From Asticcacaulis aquaticus (lineage in GTDB: Bacteria; Pseudomonadota; Alphaproteobacteria; Caulobacterales; Caulobacteraceae): 64,000 nucleotides of DNA. A program made the position numbers and the translations under genes. Below, piece after piece: positions 6,168 to 10,071 of the stretch; position 1 is the first letter of the stretch; each line of letters opens with the position of its first letter. The notes beneath the pieces are model-generated. The model was given only the letters and a program-made list of their open reading frames with translations, ran no database searches and had not been told where the DNA came from. The DNA lies in contig NZ_JAQQKX010000005.1 in the NCBI RefSeq assembly GCF_028550415.1, positions 124,001 to 188,000 of the forward strand, written 5' to 3'.

Positions 6168-7394
6168 TTACCCTTTTACGCAGACGACCTGCTTCAGGGT
6201 ATGGACGATCTCGACGTGGTCGGCCTGCGCCTTCATCACCGCGTCGATGTCCTTATAGGCCGCCGGGGTCTCGTCGATGACCTCGGCGTCCTTACGGCAT
6301 TCCACTCCCGCCGTAGCGCGGGCGTGGTCCTCCAGCGTGAAGCGCCGCTTGGCCTCGGCGCGCGACATGGCCCGCCCGGCGCCGTGCGAACACGAGCACA
6401 GGGCCTCGGCCATGGCCTGACCGGCGATACCGCGCACGATGAACGAGCGCGCGCCCATCGAACCGGGGATGATCCCCAGCGTTTCGGGCGTAATGCGCAC
6501 GGCCCCCTTACGCGTCACCAGCACGTCCGAGCCGAAGTGCCGTTCGTGTGCCACGTAGTTGTGGTGGCAGTTGACGGCCTCGCAGTCGCAGGTAAAGCGC
6601 TTGGGCACCGACACCGACAGAGCTTCGAGCGCCGCCGTCATCATCAGTTCGCGGTTCGTGCGGGCAAAGCGCTGGGCCCACGACACCGCGCCCATATAGT
6701 CGCCGAACAGTTCCGACCCTTCGGGCAGATAGGCCAGATCCTCGTCGGGCAGGTTGACGAACCAGCGCTTCATCTCGTGCTTGGCGCGTTCGATGAAGTA
6801 CGAGCCGATGCGGTTGCCGATCCCGCGCGAGCCGGAATGCAGCATGATCCACACAGCATCGTTTTCATCGAGACAGACCTCGACGAAGTGGTTGCCGGTC
6901 CCCAGCGTCCCGAGGTGGTTCTGCGCCCGATGCGCGGCCTGGCTGATCTTCGGGTGCTTGTCGACGATCTTTTGCAGTTCGCCGGACAGCTTCGAAAATT
7001 CCGCATTGGTCGCCTCGGAGGTTTCACCCCATGCCCCGCGGTCGTTCGCCCCACCATTGTCGGTCCGCCCGTGCGGGATACGCTGTTCGATCGCCGTCCG
7101 AAGACCTGACAGATTGTCGGGCAGGTCGGACGCGGTCAGCGTCGTGCGCACGGCCATCATGCCGCAGCCGAGATCGACGCCGACGGCGGCCGGAATGATC
7201 GCGCCTTTGGTCGGGATGACCGAACCGATGGTCGCACCCATGCCCCAGTGGACATCGGGCATAATCGCCACGTGCTTGTGGATGAACGGCATGGCCGCGA
7301 TGTTGTCGAGCTGCTTGCGCGCTTGATCCTCGACGGCGACTCCGTCGATCCACGCCTTGATCAGCCCGCCACGGGCCCCTTGAAACACTTGCAT
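6168..7394 (-). CDS. rtcB: RNA-splicing ligase RtcB
   Basis: A GTP- and Mn-dependent RNA ligase that joins 2',3'-cyclic-phosphate (3'-phosphate) ends to 5'-OH ends in tRNA splicing and RNA repair. Family hallmarks are visible: HKHVAIMPDVHWGMGATIG, VGVDLGCGM with the metal-binding Cys, GTGNHFVEV, HSGSRGIGN, and the guanylation-region sequences HNYVAHERHFG and GSMGARSFIVRG. The length of 408 aa is typical. The start at 7394 follows GAGGGG; the longer frame to 7457 overlaps the HTH gene. It is the last gene of a unit with rsr and the HTH gene, followed by a terminator. No rtcA cyclase or rtcR regulator is in the window. Confidence 0.93.
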   Translation of the reverse strand: MQVFQGARGGLIKAWIDGVAVEDQARKQLDNIAAMPFIHKHVAIMPDVHWGMGATIGSVIPTKGAIIPAAVGVDLGCGMMAVRTTLTASDLPDNLSGLRTAIEQRIPHGRTDNGGANDRGAWGETSEATNAEFSKLSGELQKIVDKHPKISQAAHRAQNHLGTLGTGNHFVEVCLDENDAVWIMLHSGSRGIGNRIGSYFIERAKHEMKRWFVNLPDEDLAYLPEGSELFGDYMGAVSWAQRFARTNRELMMTAALEALSVSVPKRFTCDCEAVNCHHNYVAHERHFGSDVLVTRKGAVRITPETLGIIPGSMGARSFIVRGIAGQAMAEALCSCSHGAGRAMSRAEAKRRFTLEDHARATAGVECRKDAEVIDETPAAYKDIDAVMKAQADHVEIVHTLKQVVCVKG

Positions 7395-7428
7395 GAGGAT
7401 ACCCCTCTTTCCGGGGCATACCATGCCC

Positions 7429-7659
7429 CTATTTTTTCGGATCGATAAGACCGGCAAGCTCGTAAGGCGTCTCGCCGGTTAGTTCGTACAGTTTAAGCCA
7501 TGCCCTGACGGCGGCGGCCGCCGGTCCGGGGACCGGCAGGCCGGCGAACCAGCGGGAAACCGAGGAGCGGTCGACATCCAGCGCCTCCGACAAACGGGAC
7601 TGCCAGCCCCGTTCGCCGAATAGCAGAATAGCTGCCACCCTCAGTTCCTCCGCCGTCAT
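7429..7659 (-). CDS. Small XRE-like helix-turn-helix protein
   Basis: A 76-aa protein with a helix-turn-helix at about residues 17-40 (WQSRLSEALDVDRSSVSRWFAG), of the type found in phage-like and plasmid repressors. It lies 3 bases after rsr and 34 bases before rtcB on the same strand, so it belongs to the operon. The place normally held by the sigma-54 activator RtcR in enterobacterial rtc operons is empty here. This protein is the obvious local candidate for regulation, and the GTTGC-N5-GCAAC hairpin sites upstream of the Y RNAs could be its targets. Both points are inference. Confidence 0.7.
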   Translation of the reverse strand: MTAEELRVAAILLFGERGWQSRLSEALDVDRSSVSRWFAGLPVPGPAAAAVRAWLKLYELTGETPYELAGLIDPKK

Positions 7660-7662
7660 GGA

Positions 7663-8970
7663 TCAAGCTCCCTGTGTGAGCAGTTCCTGCTCACGAATGA
7701 AGCTCAGCACATTTTCGGAAAACCCGTCGATGTGCGTCCATGCGCCGCCATAGCCTATGCCGTTACGATACGAGGCCACATTGATCATGTAGGCCTGTCT
7801 CGCCACCGGTTGCGGCACGCGGTCGGCGCTTTGTTCGTCGGTGATGACGATCAGACGGTCATGTTTAATGCCGTTGATCTTCGTCACCGCCTTGCCGAGC
7901 TCCGTACCGCCGTGCGTCTGCGACCCAAGGACCGCGTCGACACCCGCCGTACCGCGCCGAGGGGGAACCTCAACGACCGCATTGGAGAAGGTGAAGACCC
8001 GCACCTCGCCCGGAATGATGGCCGCCAGCGTCGCCGCCGCGTCCATCCGGGTCAGGTCCGACTTCGCCGACACCCGCGCTTCCATCGATCCCGACACGTC
8101 GACCAGAACGATCGTCCGACCCCCGAATACGGGCTCTTCGAGGATCGTCTCGCTCAGGGCCTGATCGAGCCAGGGCTCGAACCGGGGTGCCGCACGCGCT
8201 GCCGCCACATAACGGAACGGCAGGACGCGCTCGGCGCCCTTGCGGGCCAGAATCGCGGCCTTAACAAGATCCTCGTCGACACCCGCCTGATCCATGTTGC
8301 GGAGGTTCCGCAGCAGGGCCAGATAGCCAAGCTTGCGCTCGGTCAGCAGGCGCGTGAAGGTCTCGCGCTTGTCCGCTCCGCCCGACAGCGCGACTTCCCA
8401 CGTATCGGGGGACGCCAGCGTACCTTCGGCCAGTTGCTTCCACAGCAAGGCCTGCGCCTCGTCCTTCGGCCTGGCGTGCGACAGGAACAGAACGTCGCGC
8501 AGACGCACCGGTCCCGCCCGGTCGTATTTCGCCAACGCATAGGCGTCGAACTTGACGAAGGCCCGGGCCAGACCCAGCTTCATCTGCTTCGACAAGGGGC
8601 GCTTGCCGTGCCGCCAGTAGATCGCCACCAGCTCCGACAGTTCGTCGGCCCGCTGGATCACCCGCTCGATGGTGGTTGCCACCAGCGTACCCCCAACCTT
8701 GATCAGGGCGCACAGCAGGATCAGCGGCGCGTGACGCAGCTTCATCTGTTCGCGGGCTTCGATGGCCAGAGCCGCCACCGTTTCGGGCGCGACCTCGAGG
8801 GCCAGCGTATAGATCCGCTCGGCGATGCTTTCGCCGTCCTCGTAGAATTCGTCTTCCCACAACAGGCACGACAGCACCGACCGGCGAAGTCTTTGCTCTG
8901 CCGACAGGATCGCGGCGGGGGCCCCTTCATACGTGATGCGGGGGCGCTTTTGGAAAATGTTCAGTCGCAT
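7663..8970 (-). CDS. rsr: Ro60 orthologue Rsr (TROVE domain + vWA)
   Basis: A 435-aa protein. Residues about 15-280 form a TROVE/HEAT-repeat ring (LLCALIKVGGTLVATTIERVI, then LGYLALLRNLRNMDQAGV). Residues about 284-430 form a von Willebrand A domain with an intact MIDAS, D291-x-S293-x-S295 in DVSGSM, and a later THGGTELG. Bacterial Ro60 orthologues bind Y RNAs and misfolded or damaged RNA, and in some species tether PNPase for RNA decay. Here the gene lies downstream of two Y-RNA-like genes and upstream of rtcB. This is the arrangement known from enterobacterial rsr-yrl-rtcBA loci, with a small HTH gene in between. Confidence 0.93.
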   Translation of the reverse strand: MRLNIFQKRPRITYEGAPAAILSAEQRLRRSVLSCLLWEDEFYEDGESIAERIYTLALEVAPETVAALAIEAREQMKLRHAPLILLCALIKVGGTLVATTIERVIQRADELSELVAIYWRHGKRPLSKQMKLGLARAFVKFDAYALAKYDRAGPVRLRDVLFLSHARPKDEAQALLWKQLAEGTLASPDTWEVALSGGADKRETFTRLLTERKLGYLALLRNLRNMDQAGVDEDLVKAAILARKGAERVLPFRYVAAARAAPRFEPWLDQALSETILEEPVFGGRTIVLVDVSGSMEARVSAKSDLTRMDAAATLAAIIPGEVRVFTFSNAVVEVPPRRGTAGVDAVLGSQTHGGTELGKAVTKINGIKHDRLIVITDEQSADRVPQPVARQAYMINVASYRNGIGYGGAWTHIDGFSENVLSFIREQELLTQGA

Positions 8971-9001
8971 GACCGCACCTTCTCTGCATCTTGAATGTTA
9001 A

Positions 9002-9402: not shown

Positions 9403-9799
9403 AAAATTCAAATAATCGATACCAGCCTTCCGGGAATAGTCGGTTCCGGTTGGGAGACGCTTCCGCCGGATTGTCGCTAATCCGGGCTGTTCCGGCTTGT
9501 CAGGTTGGACCTGACATCCGGGGCCGTCCTGTCCCTGGGGTGCGAGCGAAGAAGCCGGTGCCTGCGCCACGGAAGACTGAGTTCTTTTTTGTCGCGCATG
9601 TATTTCCAAAAACCGCGAGGCACTTTTGGGCATGCGCTTAGAACCGGGGAAAAACGATATCGCGGGCGTTTTCAAGGCGATGAAAGCGATATCTGCGCCA
9701 CCGGCAGACAAGGGAATAGACGATAAGGTTGACGGCAAACCTCAACGGTCTGCCGAACGTGACAGGTTCGGTGTAAACCTTATCAACGCCACTTGGAAC
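9403..9799. other. Spacer between the two Y-RNA-like genes
   Basis: About 400 bases. Frames of 70-120 codons exist on both strands but overlap one another and the RNA genes, and none shows a ribosome-binding site or a recognisable domain. I see several short GC-rich inverted repeats (for example around 9500-9520, CAGGTTGGACCTG) and no third tRNA-like module. It may be a processed spacer of one long transcript. Confidence 0.4.
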
Positions 9800-9926
9800 G
9801 CATCAGGGAAAAGGCGAAAGCGCGGTTGCCTATTGCTCTACCATCTGAGCTACGTGGTCAAACCAAGACCGGACTCGAACCGGCGACACATAGATTAGAA
9901 GTAATCGCTTTCTACGCCACTGAGGC
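9800..9926 (-). ncRNA. YrlA-like Y RNA 2 (permuted tRNA-like)
   Basis: It has the same architecture as Y RNA 1. The outer helix is GCCTCAG (9926-9920) with CTGATGC (9806-9800), one mismatch. The 5' strand carries GTGGCGTAG and GATTACTTC, the first shared and the second nearly shared with Y RNA 1. A small GATTA-CTTC-TAATC hairpin is followed by an anticodon-like CTAT/ATAG helix. Then come a T-arm at 9884-9868 (loop TTCGAGT), an acceptor-like stem at 9867-9853 closed by a 3-base loop, UA, and a D-arm at 9850-9835. The primary sequence of the arms differs from Y RNA 1 while the fold is kept, which supports selection for structure. It lies on the rsr strand and precedes Y RNA 1. Confidence 0.78.
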
Positions 9927-9966
9927 ATCGTCACCGAAGCGACGACGAAAAGCCGTTACCGCCGGA

Positions 9967-9983
9967 TGTTGCGATGTGCAACA
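9967..9983 (-). promoter_or_regulatory. Inverted repeat upstream of Y RNA 2
   Basis: TGTTGC-GATGT-GCAACA lies about 40 bases before the 5' end of Y RNA 2 and is preceded, on the minus strand, by TTTTTT. It matches the site before Y RNA 1 in both arms and spacer length. A weaker copy is at about 10014-10036. Confidence 0.5.
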
Positions 9984-10071
9984 AAAAATCCTGCATCCCT
10001 GCCACGGGGCGACGGGTTGTGTTTCATTTGCAACAATGTAAGTCGTGGTCTGAGAGCGACAACGTCACCCC

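Follow-up and report, generated by a model that had tools for sequence, protein, structure and literature searches.

A stretch of 64,000 nucleotides of the Asticcacaulis aquaticus genome (assembly GCF_028550415.1, genome completeness 99.92%; contig NZ_JAQQKX010000005.1, positions 124,001 to 188,000), which we call the window and number from its first letter, carries on its minus strand a compact locus built around rsr, the gene of a Ro60 protein. Along that strand an array of Y RNA candidates is followed by rsr (7663-8970, 435 amino acids), by a gene for a small helix-turn-helix (HTH) protein of 76 amino acids (7429-7659), by the RNA ligase gene rtcB (6168-7394, with its ATG start codon at 7394; PF01139, 426 bits, 2.7e-127) and by an intrinsic-terminator-like hairpin (6116-6145) with a T-rich stretch that runs to 6104. 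The stop codon of rsr and the start of the HTH gene are 3 nucleotides apart, and 34 nucleotides separate the latter gene from rtcB. A preliminary description, made from the letters of the window, had proposed just such a one-strand locus of Rsr, YrlA-type RNA, HTH and RtcB closed by a terminator, and Pfam, Rfam and the hairpin bear it out. Its gene order was right; it counted two Y RNAs, both of which Rfam sees, and overlooked three others, as well as the promoters of the array and the operators that they contain.

The protein at the centre of the locus passes the curated Pfam threshold for the TROVE domain (44.4 bits, cut-off 23), while two VWA models lie slightly above their own cut-offs and the vWA_Ro60 model below its own. 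Its AlphaFold model (predicted local distance difference test score, pLDDT, 84.4) has as its top Foldseek matches the Ro60/Rsr structures 9kop, 9l5y, 9nep, 2i91, 1yvp and 2nvo, the nearest being the TROVE-domain entry 9kop and the Ro60 of Thermus phage phiLo (9l5y); against 1yvp, 2nvo and 9l5y, E ranges from 1.8e-11 to 1.7e-16 and the query TM-score from 0.57 to 0.69. Residues D291, S293, S295, T356 and D378, which we take to be the metal ion-dependent adhesion site (MIDAS) that the preliminary description had called intact, are invariant in 19 aligned sequences, that of the window included. The predicted architecture is that of a Ro60 ring plus a VWA fold with its MIDAS and, by analogy with its relatives, the protein may be expected to bind Y RNAs.

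Five candidate Y RNAs upstream of rsr

The array comprises five candidates, all on the minus strand: Y1 (9797-9929), Y2 (9709-9795), Y3 (9643-9705), Y4 (9422-9580) and Y5 (9187-9319). They have in common one covarying helix with a bulged pyrimidine, in which a lower stem ending in G-(U/C bulge)-G-G opposite CCC is followed by an internal loop and an upper stem; comparison of the regions upstream of rsr gives its conserved letters as GTGGCGYA on one strand and TTCCC on the other. What lies above this helix differs from one RNA to the next. Y1 and Y5 are of the YrlA type, Y1 having the helix, a T-arm, an acceptor-like hairpin and a D-arm; Y2, of 87 nucleotides, is devoid of a tRNA-like part; Y3, of 63 nucleotides, is reduced to the helix and a short loop; and Y4, of 159 nucleotides, bears a conserved domain unrelated to tRNA, which may act as an effector. 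When 8950-10100 was searched with Rfam at E up to 1, only two of the five were detected, through matches to RF02553 (YrlA) at 9813-9912 in Y1 (47.3 bits, E 3.4e-9) and at 9217-9277 in Y5 (41.3 bits, E 1.9e-7). These are the two tRNA-like RNAs that had been proposed; their scores are below the gathering score of 69, and we therefore call them YrlA-like and not members of RF02553. Like YrlA, the YrlA-type alignment has a permuted T-arm, acceptor hairpin and D-arm on a closing stem; unlike it, the window RNAs have their own docking-helix core, GYGGYG...TTCCC.

Two covariance models of our own, R1 for the YrlA type and R2, retrieve the three RNAs absent from the Rfam matches. R2 recovers all five, and nothing else in the window at E up to 0.05: 40.4 bits for Y1, 31.3 for Y2 (E 1.3e-4), 68.2 for Y3 (a training member of R2), 40.5 for Y4 and 52.1 for Y5. 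R1 gives 112.5 bits for Y1, one of its training members, and 85.9 for Y5, which helped to train neither model. Over the whole genome R2 returned Y3 alone, probably because no more than 150 of 2632 first-look candidates were scored, and that figure is not taken as a count.

Some other signals in this region were set aside. A tRNA-Leu(caa) called by ARAGORN at 9244-9314 on the minus strand is part of Y5, its T-arm belonging to the permuted tRNA-like domain, and Y arrays may in this way give rise to false tRNA annotations. Matches to the Brucella small RNA CI408 (BASRCI408) at 8993-9054, ahead of rsr, and at 9585-9642, between Y3 and Y4, scored 25.8 and 27.3 bits, far below gathering; they were rejected as Y RNAs, and we take these palindromic copies to be alphaproteobacterial extragenic palindromes. 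There is also, on the minus strand at 9322-9362, between the second promoter and Y5, a leader of about GGACAGGCCCG...CAGGGAACCATCCGG, conserved in Asticcacaulis and seen in L015 to L022 too; by eye, pairing looks possible between its GGGAAC and the GTTCCC core of Y5.

The comparison rests on 34 upstream regions: the window, ten relatives (L015-L024; L and G are our handles for loci and genomes) and 23 of 31 further loci, since seven of the 31 duplicate records already in L015-L024 and L059 has only 109 nucleotides upstream. A stem descriptor, which picks out Y3 and Y4 in the window, found 42 matches in the first 11 loci; 220 shuffles gave none, nor did the opposite strand. Within at most 1500 nucleotides upstream in all 34 loci, a strict version gave 96 matches, as against 13 in 340 shuffled regions and 1 on the opposite strand, and a relaxed version 104, as against 40 in 340 shuffles and 2 on the opposite strand; two of the 104, at -1445 in L037 and at -1429 in L045, resemble coding sequence and are probably spurious. 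This relaxed version places at least one Y RNA in 29 of the 34 loci and at least three in 23. It finds none in L044, L046, L050, L051 and L055, though R1 does, the match in L051 sitting more than 1.5 kb upstream. At E up to 0.01, every one of the 34 rsr loci has an R1 match; some of these loci, of Acidobacteriota and Desulfo types, had no part in its training. By eye, L048, L053, L057 and L058 (Acidobacteriota-type and Opitutia-type) have another conserved non-tRNA Y domain, of about 160 nucleotides and unlike that of Y4.

Covariation was measured on MAFFT alignments made without reference to structure, in three classes, with 500 shuffles and slid pairing partners as controls; a first set gathered by motif alone (37 rows) had been dropped before counting, its 5' cores being often paired with the wrong TTCCC, for instance inside T-arms. 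In the minimal class, that of Y3 (20 sequences, from as many loci), 93.9% of cells are paired, 11 of 15 pairs show double changes and the score is 0.647, against 0.184 in the shuffles. The corresponding values are 95.6%, 20 of 32 and 0.476 against 0.164 for the YrlA-type class (16 sequences), and 96.8%, 15 of 26 and 0.463 against 0.180 for the Y4 class (14 sequences). In no class was the score equalled by any of the 500 shuffles, and it fell to 0.147 or less with partners slid; the count of double-change pairs in the minimal class was equalled by 15 of 500. Homologous loci, where an absence of covariation would have told against the preliminary description, thus show it in three classes of Y RNA.

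We may ask at this point whether the array is as long as it looks. Y1, Y2 and Y3 succeed one another head to tail, 1 and 3 nucleotides apart, Y1 to Y4 are probably on one transcript, and Rfam sees just two RNAs, all of which would suit a locus where Y1 and Y5 alone are functional, Y2 to Y4 being spacer, structures for the processing of a single precursor, or decayed copies. We regard this as decidedly unlikely: the minimal and 159-nucleotide classes persist in 20 and 14 loci and show compensatory changes there, short Y RNAs precede rsr in other phyla too, as well as on viral contigs, and in L041 and L047 a short Y RNA is the sole match of the descriptor. As for Y2, it is recognised by the relaxed descriptor, R2 and its fold.

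The viral contigs provide a test of a different kind. R2 was trained on cellular loci alone (one of these, L024, is also present in IMG/VR, as L135), and the test set consisted of the best 80 of 444 IMG/VR stretches encoding Rsr relatives, 652 kb searched on both strands, with the proviso that membership of IMG/VR is no proof that each contig is phage. All 155 matches obtained lie on the rsr strand, and 152 of them within 1.5 kb upstream of rsr. Among the 76 loci with at least 300 nucleotides upstream, 71 have a match, 53 at least two and 21 at least three. Built from cellular loci only, R2 makes this a test that avoids the selection of members.

A small HTH protein and its proposed palindromic operators

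The palindrome GTTGC-N5-GCAAC precedes each of the two Y units of the window and most Y units of close relatives. The first copy, GTTGCACATCGCAAC (9968-9982, minus strand), lies within a sigma70-like promoter, TTGCAC-17 nt-TAACGG, at the start of the Y1-Y4 unit, and the second, GTTGCATTACGCAAC (9385-9399, minus strand), within another, TTGCAT-17 nt-TAGTAA, at the start of the unit formed by Y5, rsr, the HTH gene and rtcB. A survey found 37 such operators in 19 of the 34 upstream regions, with the T and the A of a -10 element at the fixed positions +24 and +25 in 33 and 35 of the 37, which yields the arrangement TTGCRY-17 nt-TANNNN. The palindrome spans the -35 element and the spacer.

The HTH protein was already thought a likely regulator in the preliminary description, a proposal that its distribution strengthens. 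In all but one of the first 11 loci (Rsr identity at least 61%) its gene is directly 3' of rsr and, over 61 genomes, strong HTH matches (at least 78% identity) occur in the same 10, our own included, as strong full-length matches of rsr. Outside this set G034 has a weak HTH match, of 39 residues, while G025 and G057 match rsr weakly; matches of the YrlA model are found in the same 10 genomes, in G057, where a distant Rsr adjoins RtcB, and, weak and partial, in G044. In a table of 32 of the 34 loci (L039 and L058 were excluded, their contigs ending at or soon after rsr), the refined operator is present in 18 of 20 loci with the HTH gene and in none of 12 without it (Fisher 4e-7, uncorrected for kinship). 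The two exceptions among the 20, L040 and L043, have AGTGC-N5-GCACT in the spacer of TTGACA-17-TA promoters, that is, at the same promoter place, and their HTH proteins have the recognition helix STVRRW, in place of the SSVSRW or TQVWRY of loci with GTTGC. Wherever helix and operator are both seen, (S/W)R(W/Y) goes with GTTGC in 24 of 24 cases (15 cellular and 9 viral) and RRW with xGTGC in 6 of 6 (2 AGTGC cellular and 4 viral), cases that are not independent, L089 and L092 being nearly identical. Hence the operator follows the HTH gene, and its variants follow changes of the recognition helix.

It remains that the protein is matched by general HTH models only, all below the Pfam cut-offs, as might be the case if it acted elsewhere, the palindrome being bound by another factor. 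We find this quite improbable: to the co-occurrence of the two genes, the presence of the operator with the HTH gene and the parallel change of helix and operator must be added that the 4.0-Mb genome contains only three GTTGCN5GCAAC sites, two of them here and the third a misfit to the R/Y consensus. That the HTH protein acts on this locus is thus the reading we retain, and it probably switches the unit on and off. Its structure model, with four helices, is a confident one (pLDDT 93.3); sub-cut-off Pfam matches, this model and the co-occurrence together lead us to propose a Cro-like repressor of the Y promoters. We infer repression and not activation from the operator covering the -35 element and spacer, and from the position of the HTH gene 3 nucleotides behind rsr.

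Genomes G011, G012 and G024 also have refined operators remote from rsr (six among the matches listed), and one of these starts a Y array. On contig 24 of Asticcacaulis AC466 (L075, 2556-2972, minus strand) an unlinked array of three Y RNAs stands behind an operator, and no rsr match was reported on that contig. A second rsr of the same AC466 (L024/L042) is without HTH or operator, on a contig that, to judge by length and coordinates, is listed in IMG/VR as viral (L135); by eye, further tRNA-mimic variants are seen there.

Exchange of repair enzymes and comparison with known systems

Similar Y arrays occur in relatives among the Caulobacterales, in other phyla and on viral contigs, and what follows rsr and the HTH gene is not always rtcB. 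This gene is downstream in the window, L015, L016 and L022; Hen1 and Pnkp stand there in L018, L019, L020, L035, L036 and L045, with an ankyrin protein too in two of them, and a fusion of kinase, phosphatase and T4-type RNA ligase in L021. In L037 and L039 rtcB is upstream, the contig of L039 ending before the place of the HTH gene; L060 ends too soon for its repair enzyme to be judged. In loci devoid of the HTH gene, rtcB is downstream in L049 and L051, with a match upstream in L047 and L054. In the group with the HTH gene, this survey thus shows a core of Y array, rsr and HTH gene that stays constant, beside a repair enzyme that can be exchanged. The relatives suggest that adaptor RNAs and repair enzyme are swapped like cassettes. 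The preliminary description had seen here an alphaproteobacterial version of the Rsr-Y RNA-RtcB locus without RtcA and RtcR; this is supported, save that rtcB, replaced in relatives that keep the Y array, rsr and the HTH gene, is not its constant part. Linkage of Ro60 to diverse repair enzymes has reportedly been discussed by Burroughs and Aravind.

The nearest described system that we found is the rsr-yrlBA-rtcBA operon of Salmonella (Hughes et al., 2020, PMC7790460; Kurasz et al., 2023, PMC9879122), which, in the parts of these articles available to us, likewise unites Rsr, a YrlA-type tRNA mimic and RtcB, the latter joining 2',3'-cyclic phosphate or 3'-phosphate ends to 5'-OH ends (PMC7790460). 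As described there, two Y RNAs lie between rsr and rtcB, whereas in the window five lie upstream of rsr, behind sigma70-like promoters with an operator, and a Cro-like HTH gene is inside the operon. Of the components of an RtcR-controlled rtcBA operon the locus has rtcB. RtcA and RtcR, said to be absent from the window, are unmatched in the whole genome as well (PF01137, positive in 5 of 14 control genomes; PF06956, positive in the E. coli control), and there is no strict sigma54 site, TGGCAY-N4/5-TTGC, on the minus strand of 8951-10300, where one looser match, at 10159, is within the neighbouring gene. A second RtcB-family match was noted on contig 8 (G000:C8:15914-16939, L080 region), in two pieces, each in a 395-amino-acid open frame.

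Other systems share single traits with this locus. The Ro60/Rsr-PNPase complex (RYPER) of Deinococcus radiodurans has the same Ro60 fold, with the lower stem of the Y RNA bound by Rsr and its top serving as a tether; a single Y RNA, DrY, is described in the portions available of the two accounts (PMC8394870, PMC4726728), in contrast with an array of unlike tops in the window. The bacterial Pnkp/Hen1 RNA repair system (Pfam Hen1_L, PNKP_ligase), which replaces rtcB beside rsr-HTH in six relatives, is not seen beside rsr in the window. Phage TROVE/Ro60 proteins (Thermus phage phiLo, PDB 9l5y; jumbo phages, PMC7824862, in its available part) provide the nearest solved structures, and relatives are common on IMG/VR contigs; the rsr of the window is outside the neighbouring prophage.

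Abundance on viral contigs, together with tRNA mimicry by Y1 and Y5 and exchangeable RNA-repair enzymes adjoining rsr, might indicate that the tRNA-like Y RNAs are mainly decoys for anticodon nucleases or other tRNA-directed toxins, be they the cell's own or those of plasmids and phages, the enzyme mending the remaining cuts and the diversity of the array reflecting that of the nucleases; a competitive-inhibitor idea for YrlA is raised in the available part of Hughes et al. (2020, PMC7790460). Three of the five Y RNAs are not tRNA-like, however, and docking fits better than decoying because the helix is the one part common to all five. A defence system was also looked for with PADLOC, which has no match for the three window proteins, and that reading was rejected; in a relative, three proteins do have matches, namely mads_2 for Hen1, mads_3 (weak) for Pnkp, and PDC-M72A, Ankyrin and MzaA for the ankyrin protein. 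A decoy function seems to us unlikely, and we keep to docking on Rsr as the probable role of the common helix.

Between the array and the prophage there is a nucleoside-hydrolase-like gene (10072-11145), slightly below the Pfam cut-off. A direct repeat of 54 bp at 11373 and 54925, the latter copy overlapping tRNA-Ala CGC (54929-55004), and an integrase-like frame recognised by eye (11544-12620) suggest a prophage of about 43.6 kb (11373-54978). In it, at 31891-32004 on the minus strand, is a permuted tRNA-like stretch, with a 3' half that has CCA, a short loop and a 5' half with a D-arm, which R1 scores at 38.7 bits and which adjoins a frame (32017-33033) that we take to be phage-type. It was rejected as a sixth Y RNA: R2 does not match it, by eye it has no TTCCC core at the corresponding position, and its alignment is to the tandem tRNA-Pro gene junction of phiCbK-like phages.

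A proposed repressor-controlled array of adaptor RNAs

The locus is best understood as a variant of the Rsr-Y RNA repair operon that would answer to a repressor and do without RtcR. Its anatomy is well supported; the logic of array plus repressor is provisionally the part most likely to be new. The titles and abstract openings among the matches listed, a set in which the main bacterial Y-RNA papers are not covered, describe neither bacterial Y-RNA arrays nor this HTH protein nor this operator. In the scheme that we infer, two sigma70-type promoters would drive one transcript with Y1 to Y4 and another with Y5, rsr, the HTH gene and rtcB; the HTH protein made from the second would bind the palindrome and repress both units, its own gene included, until an inducing signal relieved repression. 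The Y RNAs would dock on Rsr through their common helix, where a bulged pyrimidine sits between G-C pairs and an internal loop leads to a second helix, in agreement with the binding of lower stems of Y RNAs by Rsr elsewhere, as far as the available parts of the articles go (PMC4726728, PMC8394870). Their differing tops, tRNA mimics, minimal loop or 159-nucleotide domain, may direct the complex to partners and substrates, for example PNPase or tRNA-handling enzymes, and RtcB would reseal cleaved RNAs. For the whole, an operon of RNA surveillance and repair where a Cro-like repressor replaces RtcR and sigma54 and a tandem array of five Y RNAs serves one Rsr, we would put the probability at about 65%.

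Several observations weigh against this picture. Members of the covariation alignments were picked by a descriptor that demands pairing in both docking stems, a few by hand at the matching place, and the structures were derived from those very alignments, so that the docking stems lean to pairing; the T-arm, acceptor and D-arm helices of the YrlA type and helices 3-4 of the Y4 class, free of this selection, are paired in 92.9-100% of cells (helices 3-5 of the YrlA-type alignment in 95-100%). Folding of single sequences is mixed: Y1 does no better than shuffles (z -0.46), while Y2, Y3, Y4 and Y5 have z-scores of -4.0, -2.6, -2.4 and -2.2, the lowest-energy folds of Y4 and Y5 retaining the lower docking stem without the upper one. 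Five of the 76 viral loci with at least 300 nucleotides upstream are without any R2 match. The label Cro-like stems from weak matches, as the fold search gave none at E <= 0.001, and the protein may be an activator overlapping the -35 element instead of a repressor. Loci were classed as devoid of the HTH gene by tblastn with the window protein alone, which a strongly diverged HTH could escape, and two of them have less than 1000 nucleotides upstream. Thirteen of 27 viral loci with the HTH gene match none of the four operator types sought (L104 and L136, among the 13, have hardly any upstream sequence), L096 has an operator-like site with no recognised HTH, and five of the six refined operators listed away from rsr have no adjoining Y RNA. 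Finally, the queries used recognised no repair enzyme beside rsr in L017, L023, L038, L040, L041, L043 and L050, all of which have the HTH gene.

A broader view, which we hold tentatively and at somewhat less than even odds, is that of a modular and mobile array of adaptor RNAs: one Ro60 ring, a tandem set of Y RNAs with a shared docking helix and interchangeable effector tops, among which tRNA mimics, minimal loops and one or more other conserved domains, an exchangeable repair enzyme and a dedicated repressor whose specificity co-varies with its operator, widespread on viral or proviral contigs. What bacterial Y RNAs do, and which signals bring Ro60 into play, has been studied in few organisms. 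These loci amount to a natural experiment, in which a constant docking helix is combined with varying tops, with an exchanged repair enzyme (RtcB, Hen1/Pnkp or a PNK-ligase fusion) and with a small candidate regulator. Loss of the 76-amino-acid HTH protein in Asticcacaulis or Caulobacter would be expected to switch the system on, exposing its substrates and its partners.

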